Source: Deltaproteobacteria bacterium (GTDB taxonomy: Bacteria; Desulfobacterota; Desulfomonilia; Desulfomonilales; Desulfomonilaceae). From it: a stretch of 43,471 nucleotides of DNA. Location: assembly GCA_016875095.1 (NCBI GenBank), contig VGSG01000025.1, forward strand, positions 1 through 43,471, given 5' to 3'. Of the stretch, positions 8,616 through 37,631 are shown in pieces (positions within the stretch are counted from its first letter, which is position 1; every line of letters starts with the position of its first letter). A program made the translations under genes and the position numbers. The notes under the pieces are model-generated. The model was given only the letters and a program-made list of their open reading frames with translations, did no database searches and had not been told where the DNA came from.

Positions 8616-8923
8616 TGGCGCAGGTCCCCATGGAGCACGGGCTGTATGTGGCCGGACTCCTCTTCTGCCTGGGACTAGTCGGCGTGCTGGTGCGCCGTGA
8701 CCTTCTCTTCGTGCTCATGTCTATCGAAATCATGCTCAACGCGGCCGGAATGGCTTTTGTTGTAGCGGGGGCCGGTTGGCAGCAGCCGGACGGTCAGATC
8801 ATGTTCATTTTCATTCTCACCATGGCGGCCGCGGAGGTGGCGGTTGGGCTGGCGCTGATTGTCCAGTTCCATCACCATTTCAAAACGTTGGACGCGGATG
8901 CCGCCCGGCGGATGCGAGGCTAA
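8615..8923 (+). CDS. nuoK: NADH-quinone oxidoreductase subunit K
   Basis: A 102-residue membrane subunit with three hydrophobic helices, homologous to MrpC of Na+/H+ antiporters. The two buried glutamates needed for proton transfer are present: E38 in [10 protein letters not shown] and E74 in [12 protein letters not shown] (E36 and E72 in E. coli). The ATG overlaps the nuoJ stop and follows a strong AGGAGG ribosome site at 8602-8607, which fixes the start. The stop is one base before the nuoL ATG. Confidence 0.96.
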
Positions 8924-8924
8924 A

Positions 8925-10817
8925 ATGTTTGAGCTTCTGTGGCTCATTCCCGCGCTGCCTTTAGCCGGATTCCTGGTAATCGCGCTTATGGGCGGGGCGC
9001 TCGCGAGGCGGGCGGTTGCTGTGATAGGGGTAGGGTCGGTGGGAGCAGCCGCGATCGTTTCTGTGGGTGTCGCCGCGCAGTTCATATCAGCGCCTCCTCC
9101 CGGCGACTCTTTAACGCAGGTCTTGTGGGCATGGCTGGAAGTGGGGTTGCTCCGGCCGCACGTCGCCCTGTGCCTCGACGCGCTTTCGGTGACGATGATC
9201 CTCGTGGTCACTGTCGTGGGCTTCTTGATCCTTCTCTATTCCGCGGAGTTCATGGGAGATGATGAGAGCTACGCGTGGTTCTTTGCGTATATGGATCTCT
9301 TTGTGGCTTCCATGCTTATCCTGGCGCTCGCGGACAATCTTTTTTTCTTGTACCTCGGCTGGGAAGGCGTAGGGCTGTGCAGCTACCTGCTCATCGGCTT
9401 CTGGTATAAGGAGCGCGAGAACGCCCGGGCTGCGATGAAAGCGTTTATCGTTACCCGCGTGGGCGACGTGGGCCTGGCGGTGGCTCTACTTCTTATCTTC
9501 ACCAGCCTGGGAACGCTCCAGATCCAGGAGGTCATGCGCCGCGCGGCTCAAGAGTGGGCTGTGGGCTCCAACACAGCAACGCTTGCGGCTGCGCTGTTGC
9601 TCTGCGGCGCAGTGGGGAAGTCTGCGCAGGCGCCCCTCCAGACCTGGTTGCCTGATGCGATGGCCGGCCCCACACCGGTCAGCGCCCTCATCCACGCGGC
9701 AACTATGGTGACCGCGGGTGTGTACCTAATTGCTCGAACCAATGGGCTCTTCTCGCTGGCCCCGGCGGTGCAGAGCGTGGTGGCTATCATCGGCGTCGCG
9801 ACCCTCCTCCTGGGAGGGTTGAGCGCACTGGTTCAGCGTGACATCAAAAGAGTCCTCGCTTATTCCACCATGAGTCAAATCGGTTACATGTTTTTGGCTC
9901 TGGGAGTCGGGGCGTGGTCCGCGGCGATTTTTCACTTTGCCACTCATGCGTTTTTCAAGTCGTTGCTCTTTCTTGGCGCCGGAGCGGTCCTTCTGGCTAC
10001 GGATGAGCAGAGGGACATGTTCAAGCTGGGCGGTCTCCGCGCTGAGATGCCGTACACTTTTTGGACGTTTGTGGCGGGCGCGGCGTCCCTCGCTGCCCTG
10101 CCGCTGGTTACCGGTGGTTTCTACAGTAAGGACATGATGTTGTGGAATGCATGGACTTCTCCGAAGGGGTCACCGTGGCTGTGGCTGGGAGGGGCGCTTG
10201 GAGCCCTGATAACCGCCTTGTACGCGTTCCGCATGGTGTTTCTCACTTTTTTCGGTGAACGCAAGTCGGTTGTGAGTCGGCGCCCCGGACCGATCATGCG
10301 CATTCCAATGGGGATTCTGGCCGTCTTGTCTATCTTCGCAGGATTCCTTGAGACCCCGGGTTGGCTCGGGGGGATGGATTACCTTTCACCGTTTCTCGGG
10401 ACAGCTTTACCGGGCCTTCCACATGCAAAATCGCAGCCTGCGATGGAGCTTTTCCTGCAAGCTCTGACCAGCCTGTTGTGTGTTTCGGGAGTCCTCGTGG
10501 CCTACCTCCTCTTTGTGGCCCATCCGGAAGTCCCCGACAGAATCGCAGCGATCAAGGCCGGCGGTTGGCTCCAAGGCTTTTGGTTCTCCGGCTGGGGATT
10601 TGATCGTGTGTACGAATTCATCGTCGTGAAGCCGTTCGTCCGGATTGCCCTCGCGAACAGAGGCGATGTCGTGGACACTTTGTTCACCGGCCTTGCGCGT
10701 GCCAACGAGGCTTTGCACAGCAGTCTGAGCAGGACGCAGACGGGAAAGCTGAGAGACTACGCGCTCGGCGTGGTGGCAGGCGCGGTTTTGGCGATCGGGA
10801 TCATGGTGCTCCTATGA
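8925..10817 (+). CDS. nuoL: NADH-quinone oxidoreductase subunit L
   Basis: A 630-residue antiporter-like subunit at the distal end of the membrane arm, one of the proton-pumping modules. Seen in order: the N-terminal helix MFELLWLIPALPLAGFLV; the glutamate-bearing helix LGWEGVGLCSYLLIGFWY; TWLPDAMAGPTPVSALIHAA, the broken-helix signature of the family; a lysine in LVQRDIKRVLAYSTMSQIGY; and a long C-terminal amphipathic part ending in a last hydrophobic helix. The frame is open upstream to 8859 inside nuoK, but the ATG at 8925, with GAGG nearby and one base after the nuoK stop, gives the standard N terminus. E. coli NuoL has 613 residues. The end overlaps nuoM by four bases. Confidence 0.96.
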   Translation: MFELLWLIPALPLAGFLVIALMGGALARRAVAVIGVGSVGAAAIVSVGVAAQFISAPPPGDSLTQVLWAWLEVGLLRPHVALCLDALSVTMILVVTVVGFLILLYSAEFMGDDESYAWFFAYMDLFVASMLILALADNLFFLYLGWEGVGLCSYLLIGFWYKERENARAAMKAFIVTRVGDVGLAVALLLIFTSLGTLQIQEVMRRAAQEWAVGSNTATLAAALLLCGAVGKSAQAPLQTWLPDAMAGPTPVSALIHAATMVTAGVYLIARTNGLFSLAPAVQSVVAIIGVATLLLGGLSALVQRDIKRVLAYSTMSQIGYMFLALGVGAWSAAIFHFATHAFFKSLLFLGAGAVLLATDEQRDMFKLGGLRAEMPYTFWTFVAGAASLAALPLVTGGFYSKDMMLWNAWTSPKGSPWLWLGGALGALITALYAFRMVFLTFFGERKSVVSRRPGPIMRIPMGILAVLSIFAGFLETPGWLGGMDYLSPFLGTALPGLPHAKSQPAMELFLQALTSLLCVSGVLVAYLLFVAHPEVPDRIAAIKAGGWLQGFWFSGWGFDRVYEFIVVKPFVRIALANRGDVVDTLFTGLARANEALHSSLSRTQTGKLRDYALGVVAGAVLAIGIMVLL

Positions 10818-12391
10818 TACTGGTTTGGTTGATTGCGCTTCCGTTGCTTGTGGGAATCCTTGCCTGGATCGCGGAGCGGCGGGGAGTGGGATTGTCGCGA
10901 TGGGTCGCGCTGGCGGGGCTGTTTGTGGAGTTCGCCATTGTTCTGCGGCTGTGGGCGGATCACCCCATCCGGATGCTCACTCCCGGGCGCGCGACTTGGC
11001 TTGTAGAGCTGAAACTGGCATGGATTCCGCAGCTAGGGATCAGTTTTCATCTGGCTCTCGACGGCTTAAGCCTTCTCCTGGTGGCGCTGGCTGTGTTTCT
11101 CGCGATTGCCGGCGTACTGTGCTCGTGGACTGAGATCCAGGAACGTGTCGGTTTCTTTCACTTCATTCTCCTTGCGACCGTGACCGGTATCATCGGGATC
11201 TTCCTTGCCGTGGACCTGATACTCTTCTTCGTCTTCTGGGAAGCCATGCTCGTCCCCATGTACATAATGATTGCAACCTGGGGTCACGAGCATCGGCGCT
11301 ACGCCGCGTTGAAGTTCTTCCTTTTCACGCAGGCGGGAGGCCTGCTCATGCTTGCCGCCATCCTGGGGCTATACTTTGTCCACGGTAGGGCTACCGGGAC
11401 CTACACCTTCGACTATGGGCAGCTCATGGCCGCGTCCATACCGGCTGGGACCGCGATGTGGCTCATGCTGGGATTTTTTGCCGCATTCGCGGTCAAGCTG
11501 CCCGCGGCGCCGTTCCATACGTGGTTGCCCGACGCGCATACTGAGGCGCCCACAGCGGGGAGTGTTATTCTCGCGGGGCTACTGCTCAAGACCGGAGGGT
11601 ACGGCCTGATTCGGTTCTTGTTTCCGCTTTTTCCCGGCGCGGCCTCAGCTTTCGCGCCCATTGCGATGACGCTGGCCGTGATCGGGATCTTCTACGGAGC
11701 AATCCTCGCGTTTGCCCAGACCGACCTCAAGCGTCTGGTGGCCTATTCGAGCATTAGTCACATGGGCTTTGTTCTGCTGGGAGTGTTCGTGTGGAACGAA
11801 TTGGCCTTGCAAGGCGCAGTCGTGCAGATGCTTTGTCACGGCATCAGCACCGGCGCGCTCTTTATCATTGTGGGCCAGTTACAGGAGAGGATCCGTACCC
11901 GGCAATTGCCGCGCATGAGAGGCTTTTGGGAAACCGCGCCTCGCATGGGCGCAATGGCGCTCATCTTTGCGCTGGCCTCTCTGGGATTGCCGGGACTTGG
12001 TAACTTCGTGGGGGAGTTCCTCGTCCTGTTCGGAACTTACACGGCGAGCCCGGGAATGGCGATTGCCGCAGCGATTGGGATTGTGCTTGCTACGGTCTAT
12101 TCTCTCTGGATGATATATCGCGTCTTCTTCGGACCGCGCAAAGACGCGGTGAAATTCGACGACCTGGACCCGCGGGAGAGCATACTCCTGGTGGTGATGG
12201 GGGCCGTGATCCTGTGGGTGGGGCTCTTTCCGCAACGGGCGCTGGACACTGCCGGCCCCACCTTGAGGGCGCTGGAGCGCCATGTTGCCGGATCGACGGC
12301 GAGGATGGCCGGAAAACCCGATACGACCGAAACGTCTCTTTCCCGGTGGATGGGGATTGTCCTACCTTCGGGGCGGGACAGGGATAGATGA
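10814..12391 (+). CDS. nuoM: NADH-quinone oxidoreductase subunit M
   Basis: A 525-residue antiporter-like proton-pumping subunit of complex I. The key glutamate is in FVFWEAMLVPMYIMIATWG, and the broken-helix region HTWLPDAHTEAPTAGSVI is followed by LLKTGGYGLIRF, which holds the central lysine. TDLKRLVAYSSISHMGFV gives the second conserved lysine region. The N-terminal region HLALDGLSLLLVAL is also typical. The C-terminal tail after about residue 490 is polar (RHVAGSTARMAGKPDTTETS) and slightly longer than in E. coli (509). The ATG overlaps the nuoL stop and its own stop overlaps the nuoN start, each by ATGA. Confidence 0.96.
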   Translation: MILVWLIALPLLVGILAWIAERRGVGLSRWVALAGLFVEFAIVLRLWADHPIRMLTPGRATWLVELKLAWIPQLGISFHLALDGLSLLLVALAVFLAIAGVLCSWTEIQERVGFFHFILLATVTGIIGIFLAVDLILFFVFWEAMLVPMYIMIATWGHEHRRYAALKFFLFTQAGGLLMLAAILGLYFVHGRATGTYTFDYGQLMAASIPAGTAMWLMLGFFAAFAVKLPAAPFHTWLPDAHTEAPTAGSVILAGLLLKTGGYGLIRFLFPLFPGAASAFAPIAMTLAVIGIFYGAILAFAQTDLKRLVAYSSISHMGFVLLGVFVWNELALQGAVVQMLCHGISTGALFIIVGQLQERIRTRQLPRMRGFWETAPRMGAMALIFALASLGLPGLGNFVGEFLVLFGTYTASPGMAIAAAIGIVLATVYSLWMIYRVFFGPRKDAVKFDDLDPRESILLVVMGAVILWVGLFPQRALDTAGPTLRALERHVAGSTARMAGKPDTTETSLSRWMGIVLPSGRDRDR

Positions 12392-13827
12392 CTTTTATCG
12401 AGCTGTACGCGCTTCTTCCCTTGATATGCCTGGCCGCCACCCCGGTGGCGGCGCTGGCGGCGATAGCCGTATCTCGTGACCATGCCGTCGTGACGCTGGT
12501 AACCCTCATCGGTTTAGGCCTCTCTTTTTTCGGTTTGTGCGCGGTCCGGCCGTTGGTCCCTATGCAAATCACGCCACTGGTAGTGATGGACGGATACACG
12601 TTGTTCTTTGTGGGTCTCATCCTGATTACTACGGCAGCGGTGGCCCTCCTTTCCTACCAATACTTGGAAAGGCGCGAAGGGCATCCGGAGGAATACTACC
12701 CCCTACTGCTCTTCGCGGCTCTGGGCGCCTGCGTTGTGGCCGCGAGCAACCATTTTGCCTCTTTTTTTGTCGGACTGGAGACCCTTGGGGTCTCTCTTTA
12801 CGCGCTGATCGCTTACCAGCGAGCCGCCCCGCGAGGCATTGAGGCGGGAATCAAGTACCTCATCCTTGCCGCCACCGCGGACGCGATTCTCCTCTTCGGC
12901 ATGGCTCTAATCTATGCGAAATCAGGCTCTCTGGAGTTCAGTGAGACCGCGACGTCTCTCGCCGGTGACTATTCGGGCTTGGAAATGGCCGGCTTGGCGC
13001 TCCTGGTAAGCGGAATCGCATTCAAACTCTCGCTTGTGCCTTTCCACATGTGGACTCCGGACGTATATGAGGGCGCGCCTGCGCCGATAACCGGCTTCAT
13101 TTCAACGGTCTCGAAGGGCGCTGTCTTCGCCCTTCTCCTAAGGTATTTCGGCGAGGTTCCGGCTCAGGACTTCAGCTCTGTGGCATTTTGCTTCAGCGCG
13201 ATTGCGCTGGCGTCCATGCTGGCAGGTAATCTCCTGGCGCTGCTCCAAGACAACGTGAAGCGCATGCTGGCCTATTCGTCCATAGCTCATCTCGGATATC
13301 TACTCGTCGCGTTCCTGGCGCAGCGCGAGCTCGCGGTCACCGCAGTCGCCTATTACTTTGTAGCCTATTTTCTGAGCATTCTGGGAGCGTTCGGAGTGGT
13401 GGGAATCCTTTCCGGGAGCGAGGGGGAAGCGGAGGACATCAAGGATTATCAGGGCCTGATCTGGCGCAGGCCGTGGATCGGGGCGGTGTTCGTGACCATG
13501 TTGCTTTCGCTGGCGGGGATACCTCTGACCGCGGGATTTGTCGGCAAATTCTATGTGCTCTGGGCAGGCGTGGATTCATCCCTATGGATGCTCGTGCTGG
13601 TCCTGATCGGCACAAGCGTGATCGGCCTGTTCTACTATTTACGGCTCATTGCCGCGATGTTCGGAAGCCCCGAGGCCCCGCGAGAAGAGTTGCGGGGCAG
13701 GCGTGCGGGCTTCGAAGCCGCGGCCGCGGTTCTCGGCGTGCTCACGATTCTGGTGATCTGGCTGGGAGTCTATCCGTCCCCGCTGATAGAACTCATCCGA
13801 CGCTCTGCGGCTTTGTCCGGGTTCTAG
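12388..13827 (+). CDS. nuoN: NADH-quinone oxidoreductase subunit N
   Basis: A 479-residue antiporter-like subunit, the last gene of the complex I operon. The conserved glutamate helix is FVGLETLGVSLYALIAYQR, and the broken-helix signature is HMWTPDVYEGAPAPITGFI followed by STVSKGAVFALLLRYF, which carries the central lysine. DNVKRMLAYSSIAHLGYLL supplies the second lysine. Length agrees with E. coli NuoN (485). It overlaps nuoM by four bases. After its stop there are 217 bases to the next gene and a promoter-like sequence at 13944, so the nuo transcript may end here, although no clear terminator hairpin with a T run was found. Confidence 0.96.
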   Translation: MTFIELYALLPLICLAATPVAALAAIAVSRDHAVVTLVTLIGLGLSFFGLCAVRPLVPMQITPLVVMDGYTLFFVGLILITTAAVALLSYQYLERREGHPEEYYPLLLFAALGACVVAASNHFASFFVGLETLGVSLYALIAYQRAAPRGIEAGIKYLILAATADAILLFGMALIYAKSGSLEFSETATSLAGDYSGLEMAGLALLVSGIAFKLSLVPFHMWTPDVYEGAPAPITGFISTVSKGAVFALLLRYFGEVPAQDFSSVAFCFSAIALASMLAGNLLALLQDNVKRMLAYSSIAHLGYLLVAFLAQRELAVTAVAYYFVAYFLSILGAFGVVGILSGSEGEAEDIKDYQGLIWRRPWIGAVFVTMLLSLAGIPLTAGFVGKFYVLWAGVDSSLWMLVLVLIGTSVIGLFYYLRLIAAMFGSPEAPREELRGRRAGFEAAAAVLGVLTILVIWLGVYPSPLIELIRRSAALSGF

Positions 13828-13943
13828 AGATCGGGGGGGCATTAGGAGCCGTCACGATTTTAAGTTCGGTAGGGTGTCCGTGGATTTTTTCGCTCCCGGC
13901 GCACGCCGTGGGTCGGGTTCAGCTCGGACTCGCCGGTAGGGGC

Positions 13944-13972
13944 TTGAAATTCCACCGGGATCACGGTATTAG
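13944..13972 (+). promoter_or_regulatory. Candidate sigma-70 promoter for the propeller-ankyrin gene
   Basis: TTGAAA (13944-13949), a 17-base spacer and TATTAG (13967-13972) lie about 70 bases before the ATG at 14045. Hexamer match and spacing are good. It would make the following gene, and probably ispE and the tRNA, independent of the nuo transcript. This is a sequence match only. Confidence 0.55.
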
Positions 13973-14044
13973 ACTCACCCATAGGCTGTTCTCGATGGCA
14001 AGCTATCCAAATACCGGTATCCGATCGCAAGGTGGTGATTGACC

Positions 14045-15025
14045 ATGGGCTCCGGCCTGATTTTTCTTGGGAGCGATGAGGGCCTTTCGGTCCTCGACGC
14101 GCAGACTGGAAAGCCTGTCTGGCAATTCGCGACTCCCGAGCCCGTAGCTTCTACGCCTGTAGTTGCCCATGGGATGGTGTTCTTCGGTTGTCGGGACGGA
14201 CGACTCTACGCAGTGGACCTTGAAGAGAAGCGTCTCTGCTGGACTTTGCGGACCGACGACCGCTCGTGGACCGATCTTGTTTTGTCCGAATCGCTCATTT
14301 GCTTTGGGAGCAGAGATGGACACGTGTATGCCGTAGATCTCCGCAACGGCCTCGTCAGGTGGAAGTTCCGAACGCGCAGCGGAAGACCCTTATCGCCGGT
14401 TATTTATGACGATCTCGTTCTTGTGGGAAGCCTCTTGGGAATGGTGTACGCGATAGATTTGGAGACCGGCCGTAAAAAATGGCACGTGGACACAGGCATG
14501 TGTGGTCCTCGGTCCGTCTCCGTCGTCGAGGCGCCGGCCTTTGGCCCATCTACCGACGCAGAACCGGAGGTAAGTGTATCGGCAACGGAGAGAGCTTTTG
14601 GCGGAGTGGCTGGGCTAGACCGGGCGCTCCTGGTTGCGGTTCAGGAAGGCCGCGCAGCGGATGCGGAGAAACTCCTCGCAAAAGGCGCGGATCCCAACGC
14701 AGCGGACAGTAACGGCAGCACTGCGCTGATGTGGGCTGCCGTGACCGGCCGGGCCGAGTTGCTCGGATCGCTCCTTGAGAAGGGCGTGGATGTGAATGCC
14801 CAAGATGCGGACGGCGAGACGGCGCTGATGTGGGCTGCCTGGGTGGGTGAGCGTGAGTCGGTTGAATCCCTGCTGGCCGCGGGCGCACGCATTGACGCCG
14901 TGGACAATTATGGCGTTAATGCGCTGAAATGGGCCCCTCCGGAGACAAGAAGGCTGTTGACCGATCTCACGGGCCAGGACCTGATCGAGCCCTGGTGCGA
15001 TGAAGGGGGCTTCCCGGATGAGTAA
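14045..15025 (+). CDS. PQQ-type beta-propeller repeat protein fused to ankyrin repeats
   Basis: A 326-residue protein with no signal peptide or membrane helix, so probably cytoplasmic. Residues 1-150 contain four PQQ/BamB-type blades of about 40 residues, each with the pattern GS/C-x-D/L-G-x-(V/L)YAxDL-x-G-x-x-x-W (for example FFGCRDGRLYAVDLEEKRLCW at about 46-66). A linker follows (155-188). Residues 190-310 hold three ankyrin repeats, two of them almost identical (ALMWAA at 228 and 260, spacing 32-33). The ATG at 14045 has AAGGTGG upstream; a stop at 14036-14038 closes the frame, so no further blades exist upstream. Four blades are half of a usual seven- or eight-blade propeller, so dimerisation is one possibility. 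Function is unknown; a binding or scaffold role is an inference from the two repeat types. ispE starts seven bases after the stop. Confidence 0.85.
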   Translation: MGSGLIFLGSDEGLSVLDAQTGKPVWQFATPEPVASTPVVAHGMVFFGCRDGRLYAVDLEEKRLCWTLRTDDRSWTDLVLSESLICFGSRDGHVYAVDLRNGLVRWKFRTRSGRPLSPVIYDDLVLVGSLLGMVYAIDLETGRKKWHVDTGMCGPRSVSVVEAPAFGPSTDAEPEVSVSATERAFGGVAGLDRALLVAVQEGRAADAEKLLAKGADPNAADSNGSTALMWAAVTGRAELLGSLLEKGVDVNAQDADGETALMWAAWVGERESVESLLAAGARIDAVDNYGVNALKWAPPETRRLLTDLTGQDLIEPWCDEGGFPDE

Positions 15026-15031
15026 TGGCGG

Positions 15032-15895
15032 ATGAAGAGCATCAGGGTCCGAGCTCCCGCAAAAATCAATCTCTTCCTTCGAGTGCTCAAACGGCGTGAA
15101 GACGGGTACCACGAGCTGGAAACATTATTCCAAGCAATTGACTTGTGGGATGAACTCGTCGTTCGCAAGGGCGTTTCCCGGTCTCGTCTGGAAGTTCCCG
15201 GGCGCCCCGATCTGGAAAGGGCGGACAACCTGGTCCTAAAGGCCCTCTTGTGGTTAGAGAAGCGCACTGAGGCGCGGCGCCCCGTGGATATCAGGCTCAT
15301 GAAGCGTATCCCTGTGGCCGCAGGGCTGGGAGGAGGCAGCTCAGACGCCGCGGCGACTCTCCTGGCCGTTTGCCGGCTATTCGACCTGCCGCTGACTGAA
15401 CAGGATCTCTTGGATGGCGCCCGTGAACTCGGGGCCGATGTTTCCTTTTTTCTCAAGGGTGGCACGGCTGTGGGTGAAGGAATCGGCGACCGGCTCACGC
15501 CGGCGCAGCTCTCTCTTGACTACGAATTGGTTTTACTCAATCCCGGGTTCGCTGTGTCGACCGCGGCGGTGTACCGTGAGTTTTCCCGGACCTTGACAGA
15601 GGGTGAGCGGCGCAGTACATTGTGGAAGCTGCTTAGAAAGGGTTGCTCCGTTAGTTGTCTGCTTCACAACGACCTCCAGTCGGTGGCTGAAAAGCTATAC
15701 CCGGAGATCGCTCAGGCGCAGGCGTTCGCGCGCGAAGCGGCTTCCGACGCGGTCTTAATGAGCGGGAGCGGACCGACGGTCTTCGGACTTGTCGATCGTG
15801 AAGCCCAGCAGATTAGAGCGGTGCGGAGGCGATTGCCTGCGCAATGGACAATGACCCTCACCAAACCTGTCAACCTGGGCGTTGTGATCGACTGA
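15032..15895 (+). CDS. ispE: 4-diphosphocytidyl-2-C-methyl-D-erythritol kinase
   Basis: A 287-residue GHMP-family kinase that phosphorylates CDP-methylerythritol with ATP, the fourth step of the MEP isoprenoid pathway. The N terminus APAKINLFLRVL with DGYHELETLFQAIDLWDEL is diagnostic. The ATP-binding GHMP motif PVAAGLGGGSSDAAATL is at 94-110. The catalytic pair is likely K11 and D136 (GADVSFF). The C-terminal MSGSGPTVFGL motif is present. The ATG at 15032 lies seven bases after the previous stop with only a weak GGCGG ribosome site, suggesting coupling to the upstream gene. The tRNA-Gln gene begins 35 bases after the stop; ispE next to tRNA-Gln is a gene order also seen in other proteobacteria. 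Confidence 0.96.
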   Translation: MKSIRVRAPAKINLFLRVLKRREDGYHELETLFQAIDLWDELVVRKGVSRSRLEVPGRPDLERADNLVLKALLWLEKRTEARRPVDIRLMKRIPVAAGLGGGSSDAAATLLAVCRLFDLPLTEQDLLDGARELGADVSFFLKGGTAVGEGIGDRLTPAQLSLDYELVLLNPGFAVSTAAVYREFSRTLTEGERRSTLWKLLRKGCSVSCLLHNDLQSVAEKLYPEIAQAQAFAREAASDAVLMSGSGPTVFGLVDREAQQIRAVRRRLPAQWTMTLTKPVNLGVVID

Positions 15896-16250: not shown

Positions 16251-16673
16251 ATGGGATCCAAGCATTTGAATACAAGGGAAGCGCAGAAGACACGATACCT
16301 AGGTTTGCTGGAAAGTCGCCGAAGCGTCCTCCAAGCAAAAGGTCTCCCGGAGAAGGCCATCGGGAGGGACCCGAAGGTCAAGGAGCTCAAGGCCAAGGTG
16401 AAGCAGGTTGAGAAAGCGCTGGCCCGTATCAGCTCCATAGAGGAGCAGACAAAGAAGCTACAAGAGAAGAAAGAGCAGGCGCGGGCCAAAGCCGCGGCCG
16501 CGCGGGCCGCCGAAATCGCCGGAGCGCCGGTAGAAGCTGCTGCAAAGGCTGAAGGCGAGGAGAAAAAGGCAAAGGGCGCTGCCAAAGCAGGCGAAAAGTC
16601 CAAGAAGGGCCAAACGGGCGCAAAGGCCCCCGCTAAAGGCGCGAAGGGCGATCAGAAGGCCAAGAAGAAGTGA
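16251..16673 (+). CDS. Lys/Ala-rich coiled-coil protein of unknown function
   Basis: A 140-residue, highly basic protein that I do not recognise as a named family. Residues 1-75 are helical and charged with heptad-like spacing (VKELKAKVKQVEKALARI, IEEQTKKLQEKKEQ), suggesting a coiled coil. Residues 75-140 are low-complexity Ala/Lys/Gly (AKGAAKAGEKSKKGQTGAKA), resembling the disordered tails of bacterial histone-H1-like proteins. The ATG at 16251 follows GAGGTG at a suitable distance, and the codon usage is like its neighbours. It has no signal peptide. Nucleic-acid or ribosome association is an inference from charge only. It stands alone between the tRNA and the M50 peptidase gene. Confidence 0.7.
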   Translation: MGSKHLNTREAQKTRYLGLLESRRSVLQAKGLPEKAIGRDPKVKELKAKVKQVEKALARISSIEEQTKKLQEKKEQARAKAAAARAAEIAGAPVEAAAKAEGEEKKAKGAAKAGEKSKKGQTGAKAPAKGAKGDQKAKKK

Positions 16674-34355: not shown

Positions 34356-37300
34356 TCACATATTTCGCCTGTACTGACCTCCCACACTGAAAAGGGCCTG
34401 GGTTATTTCCCCGAGAGAACAGTATCTCACCGTATCCATGAGTTCCGCGAATATGTTTCCTCCGGAAAGCGCTATTTCTACGAGCTTTTCAAGAGCCTTG
34501 GGCGCATTATCCTTGTTGCGCTCTTTGAACTCCTTCAGCCGCCGCAACTGAGATTGCTTTTCCTCTTCGGTCGCGCGTGCGAGCTCTACCCCGCAAAGCT
34601 GGACAGACAAGGCTTCCGGATTGAGGAATGTGTTCACTCCGATAATGGGATACTCGCCGGAGGATTTGAGCATTTCATAGTACAGTGACTCGTCCTGAAT
34701 CTTCGTGCGCTGATATCCGGTCTCCATCGCGCCCAAGACGCCGCCCCTCTGCGAAATCCGGTCGAACTCCGCGAGCACGGCTTCTTCGACCAGGTCAGTG
34801 AGTTCCTCAAGCACGAAGCTACCCTGGTTTACGTTGTCAACCTTGGTCACGCCCCATTCTTTGTTGATAATAAGCTGTATGGCCATGGCGCGGCGCACCG
34901 ATTCCTCACTGGGAGTCGTGATCGCCTCGTCATAAGCGTTTGTGTGGAGCGAATTGCAGTTGTCGTAGATTGCCACCAACGCTTGCAACGTGGTGCGTAT
35001 ATCGTTGAACTGAATCTCCTGAGCGTGGAGGGATCTGCCGCTCGTCTGGATATGATATTTCAACTTCTGAGAGCGTTCGTTGCCGTTATATTTGTCCCTC
35101 ATGGCCACGGCCCAGATCCGTCTCGCCACCCGCCCTATAACGCTGTATTCCGGTTCCAGTCCGTTGGAGAAGAAGAACGATAGGTTCGGAGCGAAATCGT
35201 CAATATGCATGCCCCGGGAGAGATAGTACTCCACATAGGTGAATCCGTTGGCCAGAGTTAGAGCGAGCTGGGTAATCGGATTGGCTCCCGCTTCCGCTAT
35301 GTGGTAACCCGATATGGAGACGGAATAGAAATTCCGCACGTTGTTCTGAATGAAGCACTCCTGGACGTCCCCCATCATCTTCAGCGAGAAGCCTGTGGCG
35401 AAGATGCACGTATTCTGACCCTGGTCCTCTTTGAGAATGTCGGCCTGGACGGTCCCTCGGACGTTGCACAGCACGTCGGCTCTGACGGCCTTGTCCTCTT
35501 CGTACGAGGGCTCGCGCCCCTCTAGCTCTCTGAATTTGTCCAGTTGCTGATCGATGGCCGCATTCAAGAACATGGCGAGCATCATCGGCGCGGGCCCATT
35601 GATGGTCATAGAAACGGATGTGTTGGGTGCCGCGAGGTCGAAACCGGAGTAGAGGATTTTCACATCGTCGAGGGTGCAGATAGAAACGCCGGAAGTGCCG
35701 ACCTTGCCGTAAATGTCCGGCTGTTCTTCGGGATCTCGGCCGTACAGGGTGACCGAGTCGAATGCGGTGGAGAGCCGCTTGGCCTCGCTGTGCCGCGACA
35801 GATACTTGAAGCGCCGATTGGTGCGGTAAGGATCTCCTTCGCCGGCGAACATTCGAGTCGGATCTTCATCCTGACGCTTGAAAGGAAACACGCCCGCGGT
35901 GTAAGGGAACATGCCCGGAAGGTTCTCTCTGAGTCGCCACCGAAGAATGGCTCCCCGATCCTCGAAGGCCGGTAACGTTATGCGGGGTAGAAGCGTTCCA
36001 CTGAGGGTCTTGGTCTTAATCGGAGTGCGGATCTCTCGGCCGCGCACCGAGTACACGAATTCCGCTTGTGAATACTGCTGCTTGAGCTCTTCCCATTCCC
36101 CGACCAATCTCAGGGCGCGGGGGTCCAAGTCCCTTTCCACTTCTTCTTGCAGCTCTTTGATGCTGGTGAGCGCTTCGGAATCTTTGGGAAGCCCCTTTGC
36201 CCAAAGGGCTTGGGCTGTCGCGTCAAGTTGCCAGAGTCGCCTGGTAAGCTCTTCCTGTTGCCGACCCCAGCTATGGTACTTGCGGATGGCTTCCGCGATC
36301 TCGGAGAGATAGCCGGAGCGCTCAGTCGGGATGATGATGGTCTGCGAGGAAGGCTTCTTGTCAGGGCGGGCTTCCAGTCTTGTGGTCCACGACAGGCCGC
36401 ACTTCTCGTTGACTGCGTCGATGATGCCCACGTACAGGGATGTGACGCCGTCATCGTTGAATCGGGATGCGATAGTGCCGTACACGGGGAAGTCTTCGAG
36501 CTTGCGGTCAAATCGCGCTTGGTTGCGCTGGATTTGTTTCCTGACGTCATGAATCGCGTCTTCGGATCCTTTGCGATCGTACTTGTTGACCGCCACCAGG
36601 TCCGCGAAGTCGAGCATGTCGATCTTCTCGAGCTGCGTCTGGGCCCCGAAGTCCGATGTCATGACGTAAAGCGAGACGTCAGCCAGAGGCGCCACAGCCG
36701 CGTCACCCTGGCCGATGCCCGCGGTCTCCACCACTATGAGATCGAATCCGGCTGCCTTGAGCACGCCGATAGCTTCGTTGAGGTGAACGGGAATCTCCTG
36801 GCCCACGTTTCTCGTGGCAAGGGAGCGATAATACACGCGGTCGCTGTATATGGAATTCATCCTGATCCGGTCGCCCAGGAGGGCGCCGCCGGTCTTGCGA
36901 CGGGTGGGATCGACCGAGATGATCCCGACGGTCTTGTCCTTCTGGTCGCCGAGAAACCTCAACACGAGTTCGTCCACAAGGGAGGATTTGCCGGCCCCGC
37001 CGGTTCCGGTGACTCCCAGAACCGGAACTTTACGGCCCCGGGCCTTCTCTTCGAGAATGGACATGATAGCCGGCAGGTTCCCGTTCTCCGATTCCTTAGC
37101 CACTTCCACCGTGGTGATGGTGCGAGCTATGAGATTCCATTGACGAGTGTCGAGGCCGGAGAGGTCTCCATTGAGGCTCCCGTCGGACGCGGGGAAGTCC
37201 GAAGTCTGGAGGAAATGATTAATGATCCCCTGGAGGCCCACTTTCTGGCCGTCTTCCGGGGAGTAGATCTTGGTCACGCCGTAAGTTTCGAGCTCACGTA

Positions 37301-37631
37301 TCTCTTCGGGAACAATGACGCCGCCTCCGCCGCCGTAGACCCCGATGTGTTCCGCTTCGTTCTCGCGCAGCAGGTCCACCAGGTACTTGAAGAACTCGAT
37401 GTGACCGCCCTGGTAGCAGCTCAGCCCGATAGCCTGCACGTCTTCCTGGATAGCTGCGGTCACAATCTCGCGCACTGAGCGATTGTGCCCCAGATGTATG
37501 ACCTCCGCGCCGGAGGACTGCAAGATGCGGCGCATGATGTTTATGGCAGCGTCGTGACCGTCGAAGAGAGAGGCTGCGGTGACCACACGGATTCTATTCA
37601 CCGTCTTATAAGGCTGCGTTGACTGCTGCAT
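34356..37631 (-). CDS. icmF: Fused isobutyryl-CoA mutase (IcmF-type)
   Basis: A 1091-residue adenosylcobalamin enzyme combining three modules in IcmF order and length. Residues 15-135 bind B12: DGHDAAI (24-30, H26 as the lower cobalt ligand), SCYQGGH and [14 protein letters not shown]. Residues 200-415 are the MeaB/MeaI-like GTPase chaperone: P-loop [12 protein letters not shown] (206-217), [13 protein letters not shown], and [12 protein letters not shown]. The remainder (about 540-1091) is the mutase barrel, with [12 protein letters not shown], characteristic of IcmF rather than methylmalonyl-CoA mutase, and [15 protein letters not shown]. It interconverts isobutyryl- and n-butyryl-CoA or related branched acyl-CoAs; the exact substrate cannot be read with certainty. 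ATG 37631 follows GGGAGA. It lies 21 bases after the B12-subunit gene. Confidence 0.93.

Follow-up and report, generated by a model that had tools for sequence, protein, structure and literature searches.

A propeller-ankyrin gene between nuoN and ispE

The window analysed here is a stretch of 43,471 nucleotides from the 4.7-Mb draft genome of a deltaproteobacterium of the family Desulfomonilaceae. At positions 14045-15025 of its forward strand there is a 326-residue open reading frame (ORF) with an ATG start, which is supported by its sequence, by Pfam matches and by codon usage. It is located between nuoN (12388-13827) and ispE (15032-15895), both on the same strand and both scoring above the cut-offs of their respective models (TIGR01770 and TIGR00154). 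The ORF encodes four PQQ/BamB-type propeller blades (residues 1-151, positions 14045-14497), a linker predicted to be disordered (residues ~160-177, positions 14522-14575) and an ankyrin domain (residues 188-309, positions 14606-14971), and these and all other features of the gene described below are on the forward strand.

A Shine-Dalgarno-like AGGTGG (14030-14035) precedes the ATG with a spacer of 9 nucleotides, and an in-frame TGA (14036-14038) closes the fusion frame 5' of the start codon. None of the frames in the 217-bp gap 3' of nuoN contains a recognisable blade remnant, and thus the statement in the initial annotation that the upstream stop excludes missing blades is well founded. The ORF contains neither a frameshift nor an internal stop. 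Over the full ORF its own frame has the best codon usage, and this support is moderate because another frame scores higher within the ankyrin part alone. GC and GC3 are 0.56 and 0.62 for the propeller part versus 0.64 and 0.74 for the ankyrin part. Misassembly through repeated ankyrin DNA is unlikely, given that the genome's best ankyrin matches are only ~40-53% identical at the protein level. A promoter-like sequence of the gene's own, as initially suggested, is not supported by a consensus scan of positions 13600-15200, which found no sigma-70-like site. The distance to ispE had been given as seven bases and is in fact 6 (15026-15031). This close spacing makes it probable that the gene is co-transcribed with ispE, and this would probably not reflect a functional link to either ispE or complex I.

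Conservation of the two neighbours had been proposed as a check, and it is not observed in 11 family genomes. The gene directly upstream of ispE in these genomes encodes neither a propeller nor an ankyrin protein and differs among them. There is also no match to the propeller part 5' of the relatives' ispE (up to ~7 kb, less at contig ends), and nuoN is located elsewhere in the relatives. Thus, the position between nuoN and ispE is no evidence of function. One relative (G003) has an ankyrin ORF ~4 kb upstream of ispE on the opposite strand, which is unsurprising in an ankyrin-rich genome.

Several other features of this region were recorded. In several relatives, ispE is followed by a small Lys/Ala-rich gene, an M50 protease gene and scpA. 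The window has a Lys/Ala-rich gene of 140 amino acids (16251-16673) between ispE and the M50 protease gene that is conserved in several family genomes, and its product has no Pfam match at E 1e-5. There are two distinct copies of nuoN, one in the nuoL-nuoN segment of the window (8859-13827) and another elsewhere in the genome (C26:26635-28023). The same is true of several relatives, and both the source genome and those relatives probably have two sets of complex I genes. Finally, the reverse strand at 34356-37631 encodes B12-binding, MeaB GTPase and methylmalonyl-CoA mutase-type domains in a single chain of 1091 amino acids, which is the known layout of the fused mutase IcmF.

Domains and predicted fold of the encoded protein

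The propeller part is recognized by PQQ_2 (PF13360) with 70.4 bits against a gathering cut-off of 27.6 (E 2.3e-19), and further by Beta-prop matches. With a blade HMM derived from propellers of the family, the count is exactly four blades (residues 5-41, 43-72, 84-112 and 124-151), and all four D-strand tryptophans are retained. Strands B1-C1-D1 come first and are followed by three A-B-C-D blades. Residues 155-162 (PRSVSVVE, positions 14507-14530) align to the inner-strand position of full-length propellers, and they are a candidate inner strand for blade 1 of a partner chain. The blade sequence and the 40-residue repeat are common to this protein and to BamB and other PQQ_2 propellers. However, BamB is an exported eight-bladed lipoprotein, whereas the chain described here lacks a signal peptide, has four blades and carries an attached ankyrin domain. 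It scores 73.8 bits with the BamB equivalog model TIGR03300 (cut-off 285.2) and 43.6 bits with the PQQ-dependent dehydrogenase model TIGR03075 (cut-off 480.05).

The N-terminus, MGSGLIFLGSDEG, has no hydrophobic leader, and hydrophobicity is strongest in a blade strand at residue 119. Judging from its sequence, the protein looks cytoplasmic. The initial annotation was correct about the missing signal peptide and about the number of blades, which both the HMM and AlphaFold support. Its hint that missing export is special does not hold, because the bacterial family has many cytoplasmic PQQ-type propellers.

The ankyrin part is matched by Ank_2 (PF12796; 63.9 bits, cut-off 27.3, E 2.1e-17) and by Ank (PF00023; 61.7 bits, cut-off 21.1). 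Since both domains exceed their Pfam cut-offs with E-values far beyond chance, two repeat families are indeed joined in one gene. Residues 187-309 form four helix pairs in both structural models, and these correspond to three canonical repeats, as previously counted, plus one capping pair. Genome searches give about 20 other ankyrin ORFs in the source genome with ALMWAA-type repeats like those of the fusion protein, a repeat type shared with bacterial ankyrin repeat proteins. Unlike the fusion protein, the other ankyrin proteins found here carry no propeller blades. Desulfomonile tiedjei, probably a related organism, is a free-living outlier for which 42 such proteins are reported (PMC3932732).

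One AlphaFold model was based on an alignment of 50 sequences and a second on the single sequence alone. The former has four B-C-D strand repeats with short A strands at residues 5-149, and its pLDDT is 92-98 over residues 11-150. The same elements are present in the single-sequence model, where the half-ring has a pLDDT of 73-94. The ankyrin part has a pLDDT of ~64-86 and the linker (residues 160-176) one below 50, and the pTM of 0.52 leaves the relative placement of the domains undefined. Residues 155-162 form no strand in the monomer model and have low pLDDT. Thus, the structure prediction of the single chain that had been suggested as a check gives a confident open four-blade half-ring, equal to half the arc of an eight-bladed ring, together with ankyrin helices.

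The closest folds to the predicted half-ring are Cake8 (6tjg; Z 21.4, 1.8 Å over 150 residues), nvBagel4 (8prs; Z 21.0, 1.4 Å over 144), BamB chains (Z ~20, with half of the BamB ring superposing at ~1.8-2 Å), the WRAP four-blade fragments of which two make one eight-bladed ring (6r5y; Z 18.7, 2.0 Å over 144) and Cake4 (6tjd; Z 18.6, 1.3 Å over 135), where differences of less than 1 Z unit do not warrant a ranking. Foldseek lists agree with these superpositions. Closed four-blade folds are missing from the list of structures, which is no proof on its own. With four blades per chain and a predicted open arc, the protein has the features expected of one chain of a 2x4 propeller. It has the same number of blades per chain and the same arc geometry as Cake4, nvBagel4 and the WRAP fragment. 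However, those are laboratory constructs, whereas the present gene is natural and adds an ankyrin arm.

Rarity of the fusion and relation to family propellers

Just one representative is known for this architecture. When the whole fusion protein was used as the query, no match to both domains was found in 60 relatives, in 395 genomes of the phylum at a strict E-value or in a single-protein scan of a genome-contig collection, where such single-sequence scans reach close relatives only. A scan of the same collection with a propeller alignment gave 79 propeller loci, none of which has fused ankyrins. Viral contigs gave no match, and among plasmids and phages no record has one place covering 80% of the protein. 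Three phage matches (H16-H18) extend over query residues 6-213 or 6-235 at 24-25% identity, and a match on a Microvirga plasmid over residues 106-294 (H12) turned out to be to an ankyrin protein without a propeller. Judging from titles and abstracts, the papers that mention PQQ, propellers, ankyrins and fusion together are not about a fusion protein of this kind. The fusion is therefore a singleton in these limited searches, seen in one genome only, and the pairing is as unusual as the initial annotation proposed. That annotation had also named an ankyrin part missing from all relatives as a point against its view, and the joined architecture is indeed absent from the relatives searched. In another bacterium (AM_0876, L136:2752-4898), an ankyrin gene has a PQQ-type propeller gene directly after it, both exported-looking and unfused.

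The blade HMM was also applied to 117 related ORFs from the 79 loci, with the fusion protein excluded. There are 7-9 blades in 110 of these, six in one and 10 in another, and the five with four or fewer all run off the end of their stretch. Thus, the other 112 complete propeller ORFs have 6-10 blades, mostly eight, and the fusion is the only closed four-blade ORF. Nine cytoplasmic family propellers, each with eight blades, can be aligned without gaps over 318 columns. At least two cytoplasmic propellers with eight blades are encoded by the source genome itself, and genome searches gave no further four-blade half.

The family's cytoplasmic eight-bladed propellers (C2 and C7 of the source genome and loci L009, L010, L151-L154, L158 and L161) share the blade type and the absence of a signal peptide with the fusion protein. 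They differ from it in having eight blades and an HTH-like module at the N-terminus, usually with a zinc ribbon. Four-blade windows cut from cytoplasmic family members were used in a leave-one-out register test that included the one-residue gap of blade 1. The true register won 35 of 36 trials of family members, with 258-301 bits among those shown. In contrast, the fusion protein scores 141-153 bits in every register, about half of the family values, and has no clear winner. Its blades are also less alike, with a mean identity of 10 of 36 positions (blade 1 being compared without its one-residue gap) compared with 14-19 of 36 in intact family members. The lack of a preferred register indicates that the chain is not a recent half of these paralogues, and a recent truncation of an eight-bladed paralogue is rejected as the most likely origin. 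An old truncation would still be compatible with these sequence comparisons. A local truncation of full-length propellers had been raised initially as a counter-argument: the homologues are indeed full length, with eight blades, and the register test opposes a recent event.

The HTH-like module is about 60 residues long and often begins the family propellers together with the zinc ribbon. Its consensus is DIRSGMSDxxLMxKYxLSAxGLQSLFxKLxxAGLI and it belongs to no Pfam or NCBIfam family. There are 37 matches in the source genome (including C2:136387-136662, C7:6207-6398, C7:78148-78402, C18 and C141), 30-101 in each of seven relatives and two in an eighth, and the module is also found at loci L197-L238. 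It gave no match at E 1e-8 in 246 other sampled genomes of the phylum, few of which are from the family. The module precedes ankyrin repeats at C7:78118-79719 (P0001, which likely has a membrane helix) and, in another genome, at L226. It also precedes PilZ, DUF4388 and kinase domains and sits beside ankyrin genes. Its fusion to either propellers or ankyrins indicates that the two are interchangeable partners in the bacterial family, which makes the origin of a propeller-ankyrin fusion less surprising. A second class of cytoplasmic-looking propellers of the family (L162 and L164) has no zinc ribbon, and its conserved N-terminus differs (MRRLTEAERRxIIxLxEREEELPxxYRDLLFP).

A possible dimeric adaptor and its alternatives

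The reading that we put forward tentatively, at a probability of roughly four in ten, is that the fusion protein is a cytoplasmic homodimeric 2x4 propeller with two ankyrin arms that acts as an adaptor. Both of its repeat domains are of protein-binding types that commonly occur as separate proteins in the family, and they would have been joined in one chain. Its four blades, half of the usual eight, are predicted to fold as an open half-ring, and two copies would most likely close into one eight-bladed propeller. Perhaps residues ~155-162, after the last D strand, complete blade 1 in the partner chain. Flexible linkers would connect one ankyrin arm to each half of the dimer, and a single particle might bind two ankyrin ligands together with one propeller ligand, or grip a single partner bivalently. 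The protein is not expected to be an enzyme.

A homodimer is supported by the four complete blades, the kept tryptophans, the confident open half-ring and published four-blade dimers. Four-blade WD40 fragments are dimeric in solution, and in the crystal they make up a homodimeric ring of eight blades (PMC6805158). Rings of eight or nine blades are also adopted by truncated variants of Cake (PMC7734218). The lack of a signal peptide, the cytoplasmic related propellers and the module swapping in the family support a cytoplasmic adaptor. The homodimer is weakened by the strand at 155-162 that is not predicted, by the single sequence of this architecture and by the rarity of natural oligomeric propellers, which are a minute fraction (PMC9218822). 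We consider it somewhat unlikely that this is a natural split propeller, in which two chains with four blades each together make up a single PQQ-type ring of eight blades that presents two ankyrin arms.

A substantial chance must be given to the gene being an evolutionary by-product, in which fragments of a propeller and an ankyrin gene were joined in frame, have no settled function and are on the way out. The singleton status, the low similarity among blades, the halved family-profile score and the difference in GC and GC3 between the two parts all point in this direction. However, the frame is intact with an in-frame coding signal, the four blades are whole with key residues kept, the fold is confident, and the gene has a Shine-Dalgarno-like site and tight spacing to ispE; the sequence distance reflects age, not decay. 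Natural four-bladed propellers exist, e.g. hemopexin, and residues 155-162 could shut such a ring within one chain, leaving the ankyrin part as the sole binding arm. This monomeric arrangement is improbable, given that the closing strand is not predicted and that both models superpose on half of eight-bladed rings (1.3-2.0 Å for the alignment-based model) as an open arc. Even less probable is that the half-propeller completes or binds another cellular propeller protein: the same genome does encode cytoplasmic propellers, but their rings are complete and no second half was found in it. A link to respiration or isoprenoid supply through a cytoplasmic sensor or scaffold, as first imagined from the location between nuoN and ispE, is the least credible explanation, because neither side is conserved in the 11 family genomes.

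Propellers are thought to arise via blade amplification, and an oligomeric stage of half size has been produced in the laboratory, whereas natural examples are said to be very rare. If the split propeller proposed above is true, it is a natural counterpart of the laboratory half-propellers that model propeller evolution. The half-size stage could be tested directly with a natural, soluble chain of four blades of the common BamB type. What may matter more is that proteins of this bacterial family combine an unnamed leading domain, found dozens of times per genome, with cytoplasmic propellers, ankyrins, PilZ or kinase domains.
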